Origin: Anaerolineae bacterium
GTDB taxonomy: Bacteria > Chloroflexota > Anaerolineae > Fen-1058
Length of the DNA stretch: 52,773 nucleotides
Direction of reading: 5' to 3'
NCBI GenBank assembly: GCA_003154115.1
Contig: PMCF01000171.1
Span: 10,903-63,675, forward strand
Part shown: piece by piece, positions 33,058 to 49,947 of the stretch
How positions within the stretch are numbered: position 1 is the first letter of the stretch
Layout: each line of letters starts with the position of its first letter
Translations under genes and position numbers: made by a program
The notes under the pieces: model-generated
The model's input: only the letters and a program-made list of their open reading frames with translations
What the model was told of the DNA's origin: nothing
Databases searched by the model: none

Positions 33058-34578
33058 TTAGCGGAACAGCGCGGGCAGATAAACCTGGTGCGTACTGACC
33101 AGCGCCCAGCCAATCGCAAGGTTGTTGTTTTCATCCGTCTCGATGATGCTATGCGTCGAATCCACTTCGACGTAGAATTCGTGCAAGCCGGGTGATGAGA
33201 CGGTCCACGTCATACTGACTGTCGCAGCGCCTCCGCAACCGCTCAAGCCGCGCGGAATTTGCGCCTGCCCGATCGGCACGCCGGTGCCCGGCGGCCCATC
33301 ATAAAACGTTACCGTGAAGGGCACGCTAACCGAAATGTTGCCTTGATTGCCCACCGTCGCCTTCAGCATAAACGGGACAGGCTGTCCGGCCCACGGTGCA
33401 GCACTGCTGTCCGCCACGACATTCAAATCGACCGCGGGAGGTTGCTGAGTGGTATACGCGGCAAACGCCTGCCCCAACGGATTCAGGGCATGGGTATTGG
33501 TGTAAAACAGAATGCCGCCATAATTTATATCGTCAGAGCTATACCAGGACCAACGCTGCACTAAGCGTCCGCCGTCAGCACGATATCCAATATTGGGATC
33601 GACCAGCGTGCGTAGAATGTCGAACGTGTCGAGCATAAACGTTGCCGTGCGCGCCTCGGTCATCGGCACGCCGTTTTCATCCACATAAGGGTCGCCATCG
33701 ATGTAAGGCGGATAAGGAAACAACGTGCCATATTCGGTGATAAGCAGCGGCACATCGCGATAGCCATTGCGCGCCAGCCACTGGCGAAAATCGATCAGGC
33801 GCTGGCGGAAAATCCCCACATCAAACATTTGCGAGTAAGAGTACAACTTGCCGCGGGTGGCATTGATACCCGGCGGCACATACGCGCCCCATACTTCAAG
33901 CGATCCACCGTTATCGATCGCATCAGGATCATCGGAGGTGATCTCGCGCAGGATGTAGGAATGGGTATTCCACAGATCAGCGGGCAGGGTTTGGCTATAG
34001 TTGGCCCGATAGGCAGCCAACACCCGATCGAGATACTGAAAGCGGAGCGGCGTAGGCTGCACGATACCGCCCGCGCCAATCCTGGCAGTCGGATCGTAAC
34101 TTTTGATCAAACCATAGAGATGATGATAGGCCCGCGCGTACAATTCCGGTACCATGTTATCTTGCATGGGGCTATCCGGCTCATTGCCGATCAGCCAGGT
34201 AGCGCCTGGGTTCGCGAACACGGCGGCCTGCAAAGTGGCCGTGGGGGGCGAGAAGGTGAAGCCGTCGATGGCGGTTTGAACACGCACCACTTGCACATAG
34301 TCCGTCTGGCTAGGATGTGTTGGCGTAATGGTCGTGTGCCAATCCAAATACCAACCTAAGTTCAGAGCAGCCACATTGTAATCGACTGGTCCGCCCGCCC
34401 CCATCCCAAACCGGCAATTGGGATAGGCCGCACTTGCGCCGAGAGCCACCGGCGCGATCGAGCGGGCGTAGGCCGATTGGACGTCCGGGGCCCTCAACAA
34501 GCCGATGGCGACCGTTACGCCCAACGCGCTTAATCCGACAATCAGGCTGATCCGTTTGAGTAAAGTAGGTACCATCAC
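33058..34578 (-). CDS. Exported glycoside-hydrolase-like protein with C-terminal CARDB-like domain
   Basis: A 506-residue protein with an N-terminal signal anchor (LIVGLSALGVTVAIGLL). Residues 50-390 look like a TIM-barrel glycoside hydrolase: WLIGNEPDSP near residue 130 would hold the acid/base Glu, and PLLITEYGTLFPYP near residue 283 the nucleophile Glu. Residues 395-495 are a CARDB/Ig-like domain with PGLHEFYVEVDSTHSIIETD. The last residues are HQVYLPALFR, a motif shared with other exported proteins here. Its ATG overlaps the stop of the neighbouring hydrolase gene by 4 nt. It may trim or bind the surface glycan; no family number is assigned. Confidence 0.75.
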   Translation of the reverse strand: MMVPTLLKRISLIVGLSALGVTVAIGLLRAPDVQSAYARSIAPVALGASAAYPNCRFGMGAGGPVDYNVAALNLGWYLDWHTTITPTHPSQTDYVQVVRVQTAIDGFTFSPPTATLQAAVFANPGATWLIGNEPDSPMQDNMVPELYARAYHHLYGLIKSYDPTARIGAGGIVQPTPLRFQYLDRVLAAYRANYSQTLPADLWNTHSYILREITSDDPDAIDNGGSLEVWGAYVPPGINATRGKLYSYSQMFDVGIFRQRLIDFRQWLARNGYRDVPLLITEYGTLFPYPPYIDGDPYVDENGVPMTEARTATFMLDTFDILRTLVDPNIGYRADGGRLVQRWSWYSSDDINYGGILFYTNTHALNPLGQAFAAYTTQQPPAVDLNVVADSSAAPWAGQPVPFMLKATVGNQGNISVSVPFTVTFYDGPPGTGVPIGQAQIPRGLSGCGGAATVSMTWTVSSPGLHEFYVEVDSTHSIIETDENNNLAIGWALVSTHQVYLPALFR

Positions 34579-36026
34579 GGGTTATAGTGGATATAGATGG
34601 GATTGCGATCGACCATTAATTTGATCTTGCCGTCGATGACGCCGTCACTGGCATCGGTGAGAATCTGCAAGCTGCCCGTTAAATGATCGGTCACACCGAT
34701 CTTGGCGTCGTTCACGGTATAGTGAGCCGAAGAAGTACAATCGGTAGGCAGAGTACCTATGCCAACCACCAGGCTAGGGCAATCGTACCAGATCACGTCG
34801 ACGCGTTCTGGACTGGATGTGCCGACTTTGTCGGTGAAGACGTAGCCTTCCAGATAGGACGAGCGAGTTTCGGCGAAGGTGAGCGGCCGATCATAGCGCG
34901 CTGCGTGCAGCTGCTCATTGAGGCGCACCAGCGCGTAATAGCTTGGGCGCGGCTGATAGGCGTTTTCTGCACCGTCCAACAAGCCGGGCTGATCAGGATC
35001 GACGTCGGTCATGGCATACCAGTTAGTCATCAGCAGGTTGGCCGCGGCGCCGCGTATCATGGTCTTGGGCACATAGCGCGCCTGAACCGCCTCCCCGCCC
35101 CAATCTGTAGGCGGTCGCGGAGAAACGACCCAACTGGTTTCGGTGCTCATCACGGGACGCGAGTAACCGTGCGCGGCCAGCATCTGCCGAAAACCGGCGG
35201 CCTTGCCAATGATGTCGCGCCCGTACTTTTCCCAGTTCGCCCGATAGACAGGATAGTAATGGAAATTGCCGATGTCAAAGCAGGTCCCCGTGCAGGCGGT
35301 GAGCATGTCATTCAAGAAATTGCGATCGAAGCTGCCGCCTTCGTCGGTAAACCAATCCAGCGCAATGCCGCCCATAACCACCTGTGCCTGGGGATTGGCG
35401 CTCTTAATGGCCGAATACGCCGCCTTTAAGTGCGCGGCGTACACTGCCCCCTGCCTGCCAAAGTTGGAGATATTATCCGGCTCGTTGTAGATTTCCCAGT
35501 AATGCACTTGCGGATAGCGGGCCGCCACTGCGCCGACAAACTCCTGAAAATCGGCCAGGTTGTTTACCGGCCCGTGAGGTTGGGCAGACGCCCACGTCGG
35601 ATTGCCTTCCAGGGTCACCACCAGGTTCACGCCGGCCGTGACCGCGTTGCTAATATTTTTATCCAGCGTCTCCCACTGGTAAAACTCCGGCGTGGTGTTA
35701 GTTGGCTCAATGTCAAACCAGGACACGCGCAGCCGCATCCAGCGCACGCCGGCAGCGACCGCATAGTCATAGCCCTTCTCCGCATCCAACCGATCATACA
35801 TCTGTACCGCCCAGGGGCCATACGGGCCGCTGGTATCATGGTTGGCTATTAAGGGCAACCAGGTCGTGTAAGTCAAGGCACTCGTGTTAACCTGAGAGCG
35901 AATCACGGGGCTCTTAACGCTGCTATCTAGCTGAGCCGCCACCGGACGAGTCAGCCAGAAGAAACCCGCGGCCAACAACACCAGGCTGGCAAACATCATC
36001 TTGAACCGATTATTTATCACTGCCAT
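34575..36026 (-). CDS. Exported glycoside hydrolase, clan GH-A-like (GH39/GH5-like)
   Basis: A 483-residue protein with a signal peptide (MFASLVLLAAGFFWLTRPVAA). The barrel starts near residue 68 with PWAVQMYDRLDAEKGYDYA. Catalytic elements are YWEIYNEPDNISN near residue 180 (acid/base Glu in NEP) and PVMSTETSWVVSP near residue 295 (nucleophile Glu). TYTTWLPLIAN lies just after the signal peptide (residues 53-62). The C-terminal 100 residues (SSPERVDVIWYD onward) form a small beta domain. A GAGGTGAT ribosome site precedes ATG 36026. It probably cleaves a beta-linked polysaccharide outside the cell, possibly the one made by this locus. Confidence 0.8.
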   Translation of the reverse strand: MAVINNRFKMMFASLVLLAAGFFWLTRPVAAQLDSSVKSPVIRSQVNTSALTYTTWLPLIANHDTSGPYGPWAVQMYDRLDAEKGYDYAVAAGVRWMRLRVSWFDIEPTNTTPEFYQWETLDKNISNAVTAGVNLVVTLEGNPTWASAQPHGPVNNLADFQEFVGAVAARYPQVHYWEIYNEPDNISNFGRQGAVYAAHLKAAYSAIKSANPQAQVVMGGIALDWFTDEGGSFDRNFLNDMLTACTGTCFDIGNFHYYPVYRANWEKYGRDIIGKAAGFRQMLAAHGYSRPVMSTETSWVVSPRPPTDWGGEAVQARYVPKTMIRGAAANLLMTNWYAMTDVDPDQPGLLDGAENAYQPRPSYYALVRLNEQLHAARYDRPLTFAETRSSYLEGYVFTDKVGTSSPERVDVIWYDCPSLVVGIGTLPTDCTSSAHYTVNDAKIGVTDHLTGSLQILTDASDGVIDGKIKLMVDRNPIYIHYNP

Positions 36027-36069: not shown

Positions 36070-37227
36070 TTAGCGAAGAATGACCGGTAAAAAGATATGC
36101 TGTGTTTCATAAGCCGCCAGCCAGACTCCGCCATCGTCTGCCAACGCTATCCCAGTAGGCCGCAGCCCTGTCAACGGCAGCGGGTACGACGTAAACTGAT
36201 GGCTGCCAGGGGGGACGAACACAAACCGCCCCAACTGCCCCAATCTATCTTGTTGAGATACCCACAACGTGTTATTCATCATGCGGGTCAAAAACATCGG
36301 CGCCGCCAGCGGCAAAAACTGCCGTGGAGCTGTGCCTAAGGTTCCTTTGAAAGACAGGCCCAAGGCGCCCCGGCCTGGTTCAGTAAACCACAAATTAGAT
36401 GACGCATCAATAACCATATCGGTGGGGGCATAGCCCGGTGGAATGCCCGAGGAAATCTGCACCTCTTGACTGCCCGGCGTGAGTAACCCGATGCTATTAC
36501 TCATTGGCGCAGCAAACGCGATCTGATAGCTCGTAGGTGGGTTGATCACGATCACATCAATGCCGAAAGGATCAGCTGGTCCTAGCGCGAGTGAACTTGG
36601 CGGGTGAGTTGGATATTCTTGAAACACGTAATCAACCGTCGATGTGATCACGAGCCGATACAAACGCTTGGCATATTGTCCAGCGATCCAGATCGAGCCG
36701 TCTGGCGCGGCGTTGAGATCGGCCAGTCCGGCATTGGCTGGCAGGCCGTGCCCGTCAAACTCGTCGATGTGACCGGTGGCCGCATTCAGGCGCCCAACTC
36801 GATTCGCCCCGCGTTCCGTGAACCAGACATCGGCCCCGTCGGCCGTGATCAAAAATGGGCCGCTGTTTGTCGGCGCAGAGAGGAGATACTCGGCGGCCAG
36901 GGTATAACTTGTAGTACTCGTGAAGACAACATGGGCGATACGGTTAAGACCATACTCGGTCACCCAGACATGTGTGGGATTAGTGCCGCTTACCGCCACG
37001 CCGGTCGGCAGCGCACCGCTCGACAATGGTATCGTGATGAACGTCTGTGTGTCCGGCATGAAAAGATAGAGGTAACTGGCATTGGGTACGGGCGAGTCGA
37101 GAATGTTAAGAGGCTTGACACCCGCATGCGAGACCTCGGTCGTGCCATTCCACACGAGAGCCAGACCGGCCAGTGCCAGGCCAGCCGTCAACAGCGCACG
37201 CTTCCATACTGAAAAGTTGCGAGTCAT
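36070..37227 (-). CDS. Exported beta-propeller protein (Vgb/NHL-like)
   Basis: A 385-residue protein with a signal peptide (ALLTAGLALAGLALVWN). Repeated blades contain a W-(F/V/I)-(T/A)-E/G pattern: HVWVTEYGLNRIAHV, DVWFTERGANRVGRL, SIWIAGQYAKRLYRL, NLWFTEPGRGALGL and TLWVSQQDRLGQLGRF. They match virginiamycin-B-lyase-like or SMP-30-like propellers. It ends HIFLPVILR, the short motif seen in other exported proteins of this window. AGGAGG lies 6 nt before ATG 37227. I see no sign of lyase activity, so a binding or scaffold role is as likely as an enzyme. Confidence 0.78.
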   Translation of the reverse strand: MTRNFSVWKRALLTAGLALAGLALVWNGTTEVSHAGVKPLNILDSPVPNASYLYLFMPDTQTFITIPLSSGALPTGVAVSGTNPTHVWVTEYGLNRIAHVVFTSTTSYTLAAEYLLSAPTNSGPFLITADGADVWFTERGANRVGRLNAATGHIDEFDGHGLPANAGLADLNAAPDGSIWIAGQYAKRLYRLVITSTVDYVFQEYPTHPPSSLALGPADPFGIDVIVINPPTSYQIAFAAPMSNSIGLLTPGSQEVQISSGIPPGYAPTDMVIDASSNLWFTEPGRGALGLSFKGTLGTAPRQFLPLAAPMFLTRMMNNTLWVSQQDRLGQLGRFVFVPPGSHQFTSYPLPLTGLRPTGIALADDGGVWLAAYETQHIFLPVILR

Positions 37228-37407
37228 ACCATGCCTCCTTTAGAATAAGCGTAGAATTTCTACAGAACGGACATCCCTACTAAATGCGCGGAGCGGATCA
37301 AATGCGCTGGCGCTTACACAGCAAAGCGGGCGACCTACTGCCCGTCGTCCGCTGCCCATCTTACCACAGCCTTTTGATCTGCTCCGCCCATCCCGGAAAG
37401 GGGGGCC

Positions 37408-47272: not shown

Positions 47273-48550
47273 GTGGGGCTTGCCAATCATCCCTCACGCG
47301 TGTATCATCACCCTGTGACTGACCCAACTGTCGAGGCTCCTCCACTGGGCACCGAGTCCGAAATGGCCGGGACGCGTAATCGCATTCCGGGCGTGGCCAG
47401 CGCTCGCTTCCATCTCATCTTGCTGTTCAGCGTCAAGCTCAGCCGGCTGAACGGGATCTGGCTTGCCGTCTACATCGAATTCTTCACGCTGCTCACCTTG
47501 TTCACCTGGGCGACCCGCATGGAATCGTTGGACGTCGGTCTGGCGGTGGGCATTGCTTTCCTGACCTTGGCCGTGCTCGACTGGATCGCTTTAGCGCAGC
47601 TGCCGCGCCGCGGCCGATCGTTCGGGCCGGTCGCACCACCCTTATTCGTGTTGGTTCCGCTGCGCGCCGCCGTGACCATCGTGCCGGTGCTCGTACCGCT
47701 CAGCCCGCTGTGGATTGCGACCCTGGTAGAAGTCGGCAACTTCGCACTGACGGGCTATGTGCTCGACAGTTTGTGGGGGGAACCCTTTCGTCTATCTATC
47801 ACGCGCCTCACCCTGCGATCGTCTAAACTGCGCGGCGCGCCGCCGCTACGCGTGCTGCACGTGAGCGATTTCCACGTCGAACGCCTGACCCGCCGCGAAG
47901 AAAAGATGATCAAGTGGATTAACGAACTGCGGCCCGATCTCATCGTGTACACCGGCGATTTGTTGAATTTTTCTTATATCAACGATGAACGCGCGCGCGC
48001 CGATTGCCTGCGCTTGTTGACGCAGTTGCACGCCCCGCTGGGCGTGTATGGCGTCCCTGGCACGCCCCTCATCGATACGCCCGAAGTGCAGGCAGCACTT
48101 TATCCCCAGACACCGCACATTCATTGGTTGAAGAATGAAACGATCGAGATTGAGGGCTACCCCCAGCTGCAGCTCATCGGGCTGACCTGCACCCATGATC
48201 CGACGTTAGATGCGCCTAGATTCGCGCAGGTACGCGCCACCGTACCGTCCGAAAAATTCACGCTGCTGTTGTATCATTCACCTGACTTGATGCCAGAGGC
48301 TGTCCGCGCCGGAATTGATTTGTATCTGTGCGGCCACACGCATGGCGGGCAAATCCGGCTGCCCCTGTGGGGCGCCATCGTGACCGGGTCGCTGTATGGC
48401 AAGCGCTATGAAATGGGCCGCTATCAAAGCGGCAGCACCACGTTGTATGTCAGTCGCGGCATTGGCCTGGAGGGAAAAGGCGCACCCCGTATGCGCTTTT
48501 TGTGTACGCCGGAAATGGAACTGTTTGAACTACGGGGAAGCGAACCATGA
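47273..48550 (+). CDS. Membrane-bound metallophosphoesterase (YaeI/YkuE-like)
   Basis: A 425-residue protein. Three or four membrane helices occupy residues 45-165, then a calcineurin-type phosphoesterase domain. Metal motifs seen are LHVSDFHVERL (Asp-x-His) near residue 196, LIVYTGDLLNFS near residue 225 and YLCGHTHGGQIRLP near residue 350. The usual GNHD motif between them is replaced by YGVPGTPLIDTPE, so the catalytic Asn and His are missing. It may hydrolyse phosphoester lipids or act as a binding protein. Starts GTG 47273, GTG 47315 and ATG 47363 are all possible; GTG 47273 has GGAAGAGG 3 nt before it. It is 26 nt upstream of the subtilase gene. Confidence 0.83.
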   Translation: MGLANHPSRVYHHPVTDPTVEAPPLGTESEMAGTRNRIPGVASARFHLILLFSVKLSRLNGIWLAVYIEFFTLLTLFTWATRMESLDVGLAVGIAFLTLAVLDWIALAQLPRRGRSFGPVAPPLFVLVPLRAAVTIVPVLVPLSPLWIATLVEVGNFALTGYVLDSLWGEPFRLSITRLTLRSSKLRGAPPLRVLHVSDFHVERLTRREEKMIKWINELRPDLIVYTGDLLNFSYINDERARADCLRLLTQLHAPLGVYGVPGTPLIDTPEVQAALYPQTPHIHWLKNETIEIEGYPQLQLIGLTCTHDPTLDAPRFAQVRATVPSEKFTLLLYHSPDLMPEAVRAGIDLYLCGHTHGGQIRLPLWGAIVTGSLYGKRYEMGRYQSGSTTLYVSRGIGLEGKGAPRMRFLCTPEMELFELRGSEP

Positions 48551-48576
48551 AATCTCACTTTTAAGGAGAGTATGCG

Positions 48577-49947
48577 ATGAAATTACGATTTGTGGTTGTG
48601 CTGGGCTTGGTCGTGTTGAGTGTTTTGGCGCTCAGTTTGACGGCGGTGGCTCGGCCCGGCGCGCCGGCCAGCTTGACCACCAATCCGTCCGGGGTGTTGC
48701 GCTCATCAACCGCGTTGACTTACTCCGTTTATATGCCTGTGTTGTTTAGTTGCTACCCGATCTTGGGATATGATCCGTTTTATTCAACCTATCAAGGCGA
48801 CATGGTCGTGATCCATGCTGATGCAGCGTGGCGTGGTTGCCCCCTGGTTACCGGCAGCGGCGTGACCATTGCCATTATCGACACAGGAGTCGATCTCACC
48901 CATCCCGATCTCAAGGCGAACCTCGTTGCCGGTTACGACTTTGTGGATTCAGATGGGACGCCACAAGACGGCAACGGCCATGGCACCAATGTTGCCGGTA
49001 TTGCGGCGGCGGCGCTCAATGGAGTTGGCGTGTCAGGCGTAGCGCCAGCAGCCAAGATTCTGCCCGTACGTGTGCTGGACAACGATGGCAGGGGCTCTAC
49101 CAGTGGTGTGGCGGCCGGCGTCACTTACGCGGCCGATCGCGCGCAGATCTTGAATCTGAGCCTTGGCTCAGTCTATCCCAACACGACACTGCAAAACGCG
49201 ATCAACTACGCCGCGAATACCAAAGGGCGGTTGGTGGTAGCGGCCTCCGGGAATTGTGGTGACTTCTATTATCCTTACAATGGCTGCACGGTTCAGAATC
49301 AGCCGTCGTATCCGGGCGCCTGGCCGAACGTGCTGGCCGTCGCCGCCACCGACAACTATGACGGCCACGCCAGCTTCTCAACCTCAGGCAGCTATGTCGA
49401 TGTGGCGGCGCCCGGCGTCGACATCTACAACACCTACATGGGCAACTCTTACTATACCGAAAGCGGCACCTCGCAGGCGACGCCGCACGTGGCCGGACTG
49501 GCCGCCTTGATCTGGGCGAAGTATCCTTCCTACACAGCGGCGCAAGTATGGAATCGCATCACGTCCACGGCGGTCGATCTGGGTACAGCCGGTCGCGACA
49601 ATGTTTTCGGCGCGGGCCGCATTGACGTGAAGAAAGCGCTGGGGATCACCCTGGCGAGCGTGAACGAAGTCGCGGCGCAACTCAAGCAAGTTGAGCCAGC
49701 CGCCCCGATCGATCAACGCGCGGCTCCCATCGCGGCGGGCCGCGTCATCGTGAAATTCAAGTCGACGGGCGCGGCGGCGCAAACCTTGCAGCAGATGAGC
49801 GGCGTCGTCGTCATTAACTCGATCCACGGCATCGACGCGCAGGTGTTGCAGGTGCCGGCCGGCCAGGAATGGCAAGTGGTCGATCAACTGCGCGCGCAGT
49901 CCGGCGTGGAATATGCCGAACCCGATTACGTGATCAGCATCCAATAG
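48577..49947 (+). CDS. Exported subtilisin-like protease (S8) with C-terminal prodomain-like module
   Basis: A 456-residue protein. Signal peptide residues 1-26, then ALTYSVYMPVLF at 46-57. The catalytic domain (90-355) has Asp102 in AIIDTGVD, His135 in NGHGTNVAG, oxyanion Asn226 in ASGNCGD and Ser299 in SGTSQATPHVAG. Residues 388-456 (GRVIVKFKSTGAAAQ ... GVEYAEPDYVISI) match the fervidolysin/I9-like prodomain that normally precedes the catalytic domain. Here it follows, so the layout is permuted. The N-terminal region before Asp102 is too short for the usual prodomain. It is probably extracellular, with the module acting as inhibitor or folding aid in cis or trans. AAGGAGAG precedes the ATG. 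Confidence 0.9.
   Translation: MKLRFVVVLGLVVLSVLALSLTAVARPGAPASLTTNPSGVLRSSTALTYSVYMPVLFSCYPILGYDPFYSTYQGDMVVIHADAAWRGCPLVTGSGVTIAIIDTGVDLTHPDLKANLVAGYDFVDSDGTPQDGNGHGTNVAGIAAAALNGVGVSGVAPAAKILPVRVLDNDGRGSTSGVAAGVTYAADRAQILNLSLGSVYPNTTLQNAINYAANTKGRLVVAASGNCGDFYYPYNGCTVQNQPSYPGAWPNVLAVAATDNYDGHASFSTSGSYVDVAAPGVDIYNTYMGNSYYTESGTSQATPHVAGLAALIWAKYPSYTAAQVWNRITSTAVDLGTAGRDNVFGAGRIDVKKALGITLASVNEVAAQLKQVEPAAPIDQRAAPIAAGRVIVKFKSTGAAAQTLQQMSGVVVINSIHGIDAQVLQVPAGQEWQVVDQLRAQSGVEYAEPDYVISIQ

Follow-up and report, generated by a model that had tools for sequence, protein, structure and literature searches.

The window, comprising 52,773 nucleotides of a contig from an Anaerolineae bacterium of the phylum Chloroflexota (GenBank assembly GCA_003154115.1, contig PMCF01000171.1), contains an ORF of 456 amino acids (48577-49947, + strand) which, judged by its sequence, codes for a putative secreted thermitase-like S8 protease with its prodomain at the C-terminus and none upstream of the catalytic domain. 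The features of this ORF and of its upstream neighbor are:

47273..48550, + strand, upstream neighbor, an ORF coding for a calcineurin-like phosphoesterase (metallophosphoesterase)
48577..48651, + strand, signal-peptide-like N-terminus (residues 1-25), with Lys/Arg followed by a hydrophobic run to LTAVA
48721..48747, + strand, tag 'YSVYMPVLF' (residues 49-57), a YLPLV-type motif
48766..49665, + strand, thermitase-like catalytic domain (residues 64-363), from the Pfam S8 match, the 1thm alignment, the fold match, and motifs
49666..49731, + strand, flexible A/P/Q-rich linker (residues 364-385), unconserved in relatives
49732..49944, + strand, C-terminal prodomain (residues 386-456), from PF22148, the secondary structure of the model, and alignments

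The catalytic domain is recognized by the Pfam Peptidase_S8 model (residues 93-347, E 9.7e-59), displays the S8 catalytic triad by motif (D102, H135, S299), and has thermitase (1thm) as its closest solved structure, residues 66-355 aligning with 5-277 of 1thm. The original prediction had placed a fervidolysin/I9-type prodomain at 49738-49944 (residues 388-456), and this is borne out by a match to the Pfam family Fervidolysin_NPro-like (PF22148) at residues 386-450 (E 5.5e-13; 49.6 bits against a curated cut-off of 21): a C-terminal prodomain on an S8 ORF is confirmed as a real observation. Its further claim that the N-terminus lacks space for a propeptide also stands, in that residues 26-63 give no prodomain match, and no N-terminal prodomain is concealed by a wrong start because the upstream metallophosphoesterase ORF runs to its stop at 48550; a ribosome-site-like AAGGAGAG precedes the subtilase start at 48577. 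The signal-peptide-like region forms a helix (residues 2-24) in a single-sequence model (pLDDT 36), the assignment being based on the sequence and this model. Across the whole genome, the tail of this ORF is the sole match to PF22148, and the S8 profile has 15 matches. The organization departs from the canonical signal-Pro-Cat order, the prodomain not being N-terminal to the catalytic domain; there is no Pro-Cat autocleavage junction, the chain instead terminating at the P1 column; and the prodomain shares its ORF with the protease rather than occupying a separate small gene like the stand-alone I9 inhibitors. We refer to this order as permuted.

A structure model was obtained from a 22-row alignment, drawn from the window and from viral-contig loci, including six catalytic and 15 prodomain fragments; as these fragments were chosen for bringing the tail into register with known prodomains, its alignment there is not independent evidence. 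The model has a mean pLDDT of 70, and its catalytic part is a subtilisin fold (Z ~25 over ~212 residues, ~3 Å rmsd). The tail shows a β-α-β-β-α-β order that fits the propeptide, the fold-match lists being filled by the catalytic domain, and its pLDDT is 82-94 over most of its length, with the last block at 56; this low value counts against the tail acting as an inhibitor.

The original prediction had suggested looking for further S8 proteins of this order, and such proteins were found. The protein query against 41 genomes recovered several matches spanning the catalytic domain and the tail. A profile of the junction (the last part of the catalytic domain, the linker, and the prodomain), built with seven of the permuted proteins and then run on 298 genomes of the class, the remainder being discovered by it, reaches its end in at least 26 of these genomes with 105-235 bits, 25 matching over the whole profile length and one being cut by a contig end. 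The result is two-humped, the best remaining genomes matching the catalytic part only, and the genome counts are lower bounds because at most 12 candidates were scored per genome. The layout spans 11 families of the class (group codes f1, f5, f7, f9, f10, f25, f33, f36, f41, f45, and f50), and a search of 400 genomes of the phylum added one further genome from another class, bringing the total to 27. Pfam's own PF22148 model, which is independent of the junction profile, detects 19 of 26 permuted tails (this protein's and 25 from other genomes) at E <= 0.01. In every permuted protein the only prodomain is C-terminal; in every canonical relative whose match is clear, the only one is N-terminal. 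Elsewhere, a scan of the species collection returned only two matches, both to distant S8 proteins, and a prodomain scan of viral contigs returned one locus. Proteins of Streptomyces and Arthrobacter with plasmid tblastn matches across the junction were rejected as chance extensions, since they reach less than 7 bits with the prodomain profile and their chains continue well beyond the match.

The phosphoesterase-then-permuted-subtilase pair is also found in another genome of the genus, G001 (positions 1-2013 of locus L038 against 47273-49947 of the window). The catalytic part is 79% identical to that of this same-genus copy, the tail 56%, and the linker 27%; the tail has a dN/dS of 0.19 in this comparison, and seven pairs give values of 0.13-0.54. 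Purifying selection acts on the tail, and the linker drifts; in relatives, the latter measures 21-41 amino acids by profile boundaries and is rich in A, P, S, G, and T.

The point at which the chain ends is itself conserved. For 25 permuted proteins the catalytic domain was available; the last residue falls precisely on the P1 column in 16 of these and one position further on in six. The other three extend 5-8 residues past it, which counts against an inhibitory tail. In the canonical proteins, the 'PND' of the mature start lies two residues after the P1 column in 13 of 21 cases and three residues after it in three more. The mature thermitase chain (Y-T-P-N-D) has the same spacing, D66 of our protein aligning with its D5. 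With the cleavage point of the canonical relatives inferred from thermitase, this spacing indicates that the permuted chain terminates where a canonical enzyme would cut. Gln occupies the terminal column in 15 of 25 permuted proteins, distributed over several families, versus the P1 position in 1 of 27 canonical ones (Fisher 1e-5, with kin not independent). In a comparison of the tail profile with the prosegment of subtilisin BPN' (1spb_P), AEPDYVISI aligns with VEEDHVAHA at an E-value of 0.087, weak alone; by this same alignment, Gln456 is the residue following the aligned stretch and falls on the last (C-terminal P1) residue of 1spb_P, and E448/D450 fall on its E-x-D pair. The alignment behind this profile and behind the viral-contig scan contains one erroneous residue, Tyr for Phe at the beginning of its second row. 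In BPN', these prosegment residues, E69 and D71, cap two helices of the enzyme (PMC6993865). Of this Glu-x-Asp/Asn capping pair, the second position is D/N in 26/26 tails and the first is E/D in 21/26.

The N-terminal side is likewise distinctive. Of 25 permuted proteins, 18 have a YLPLV tag of the strict pattern immediately ahead of the catalytic domain, versus 0 of 38 canonical ones; most other permuted proteins carry a relaxed form of the tag, and the version here, YMPVL, fits the relaxed form only. A YLPLVxR/N-type motif also terminates many secreted-looking proteins of the class (14 of 264 distinct ORFs vs 1 in shuffles), and the YLPLV-type ending is possibly a sorting tag. Two ORFs of the window on the - strand (33058-34581 and 36070-37239) have such terminal motifs, viz., QVYLPALFR and HIFLPVILR, and comparable endings occur at the loci L004, L028, L032, L039, L043, and L188. 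The large extra regions of the permuted proteins are N-terminal, with up to ~930 residues before the catalytic domain (in stop-to-stop frames), and include a CARDB domain in L080; those of the canonical proteins are C-terminal, with a median of 204 residues after the catalytic domain. We infer that maturation with a C-terminal prodomain leaves the N-terminal part uncut.

In trees built on the catalytic domain, permuted and canonical proteins are intermixed, implying five to seven changes, at least two of which are forced by starred branches; the prodomain is too short for a resolved tree. As a single permuted clade is not rejected (AU p 0.11), we do not claim a repeated origin. In one genome (G077, contig C143; loci L072 and L101), the end of a permuted subtilase gene adjoins a canonical, prodomain-first subtilase on the same strand, and genes placed side by side in this way could give rise to a Cat-Pro fusion. 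Among other unusual relatives, the permuted L085 (genome G068) carries Ala at the position of the catalytic Ser in a GTA(Q) motif, the Ser being present in its close kin L080; it is either a naturally inactive enzyme or the product of a sequencing error, and its retention of the tail counts against an inhibitory tail. L093 (genome G234, contig C159) combines in one ORF an S8-like domain, a tag, and a permuted S8 domain with a C-terminal prodomain; the first S8-like domain has GARAAAAHV in place of GTSxAxPHV and no catalytic Ser.

The comparison with known systems underscores both the commonalities and the differences. With the S8 proteases of the thermitase/fervidolysin type (fervidolysin, PDB 1R6V), the permuted protein has in common the catalytic domain (1thm being its best solved match), the prodomain family, and the capping pair; however, PF22148 is N-terminal in the former, whereas here the prodomain follows the catalytic domain, there is no Pro-Cat bond, and the chain ends at P1. 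Likewise, it shares the subtilisin fold with pro-subtilisins BPN' and E (1SPB, 1SCJ), the tail aligning with the prosegment up to P1, but in these the pro segment is N-terminal and removed by the enzyme itself. The C-terminal propeptides of certain other S8 enzymes, namely aqualysin-like keratinases and Tk-SP, are of an unrelated fold. These enzymes resemble the permuted protein in having a C-terminal pro region, but additionally carry an N-terminal propeptide that is absent here (PMC5498600). The stand-alone I9-type inhibitors (POIA1, yeast IB2, TgMIC5, SUB1-ProM) similarly employ the prodomain fold with no cleavable Pro-Cat junction and end in the active-site groove (PMC6993865), but are untethered products of separate genes, unlike the tail fused here to an S8 domain. 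Finally, the tail in its proposed role may be likened to the prodomain of Clostridium CspB, which works as a separate chain and whose residues P3-P1 remain in the active site and inhibit it (PMC3567191), although the CspB prodomain is N-terminal and autocleaved first. A literature search covering few subscription journals found no description of the permuted order.

We propose that the protein is probably a natural permuted zymogen, in which the tethered, pre-cut prodomain would serve as both a folding aid and a product-like inhibitor, with the N-terminal part retained. What sequence evidence establishes of this proposal is the domain order, the one prodomain, the chain end at P1, the caps, the purifying selection, and the presence in 27 genomes. 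Under the proposed layout of signal peptide, short YLPLV-type tag, catalytic domain, flexible linker, and prodomain, the last would, after export, fold onto the two helices on the surface of the catalytic domain, in the manner of N-terminal prodomains, and assist the folding of that domain. The original prediction had held that a module made last cannot be a cis chaperone, which is too strong: CspB-type prodomains aid folding as separate chains (PMC3567191), and late synthesis therefore need not bar such a role. The last prodomain strand would occupy the S4-S1 sites, with Gln456 presenting its free carboxylate at S1, so that the enzyme would begin 'already cut' and product-inhibited, a state that ordinary subtilases reach only after self-cleavage. 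Activation would then follow once a second copy of the enzyme, or a different protease, destroys the prodomain or cuts the linker, and in a known case a non-covalent propeptide complex is activated when other proteases degrade the propeptide (PMC10580911). Because nothing would be cut at the N-terminus, the tag or domains located there would remain on the mature enzyme, and this retained part may explain why the layout is kept.

Of the two functions that the original prediction had offered, a built-in inhibitor and action in trans, the anatomy favors the former, with the tail end at the P1 column and the capping pair retained. That the tail acts mainly in trans, being freed to inhibit or help fold other subtilases of the cell in the manner of stand-alone I9 proteins, appears unlikely. 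The variable linker is a possible cutting site, propeptide-like inhibitors are known as stand-alone proteins (PMC6993865), and the genome has many other S8 matches, but the tail is the one PF22148 match in this genome, which leaves no evident sibling S8 proteins of that propeptide type; moreover, every permuted tail is fused to its own S8 domain, and a prodomain can discriminate in favor of its cognate enzyme (PMC10580911). We consider it just as improbable that the tail, though still of the prodomain fold, stays outside the active site and now has another use, such as that of a C-terminal module for secretion or stability. The retention of the tail in L085 despite its dead catalytic Ser and the loss of the first cap in 5 of 26 tails would be in keeping with such reuse, but the constancy of the chain end at the P1 column in many families and the invariance of the second cap speak against it, since a secretion or stability module would have no clear reason for either.

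An error of the gene model or assembly, or the recent, accidental joining of this gene to the beginning of another subtilase gene, might be entertained for an assembly of 460 contigs with an estimated contamination of 8.5%, particularly as tandem S8 genes do occur (L072/L101). This has a negligible probability, being in effect already refuted by the recurrence of the same order with nearly the same chain end in 27 genomes; the tail is also under purifying selection, and no S8 remnant follows the stop codon here. For the permuted zymogen, the recurrent layout and a chain end at the would-be self-cut point suggest a protease made with its inhibitor already in place.

As textbooks present it, subtilisin has an intramolecular chaperone at its N-terminus and cuts this off itself; self-cleavage is thought to be the first step of subtilases. 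We give even chances to the broader proposition that the permuted proteins constitute a class of zymogens born product-inhibited and never self-cleaving, with the N-terminus free for attached domains and perhaps with several origins. The conserved permuted set offers a ready experiment on whether the order of synthesis and self-cleavage are required for folding and inhibition, and its layout suggests a design for proteases that would retain N-terminal fusions through maturation.
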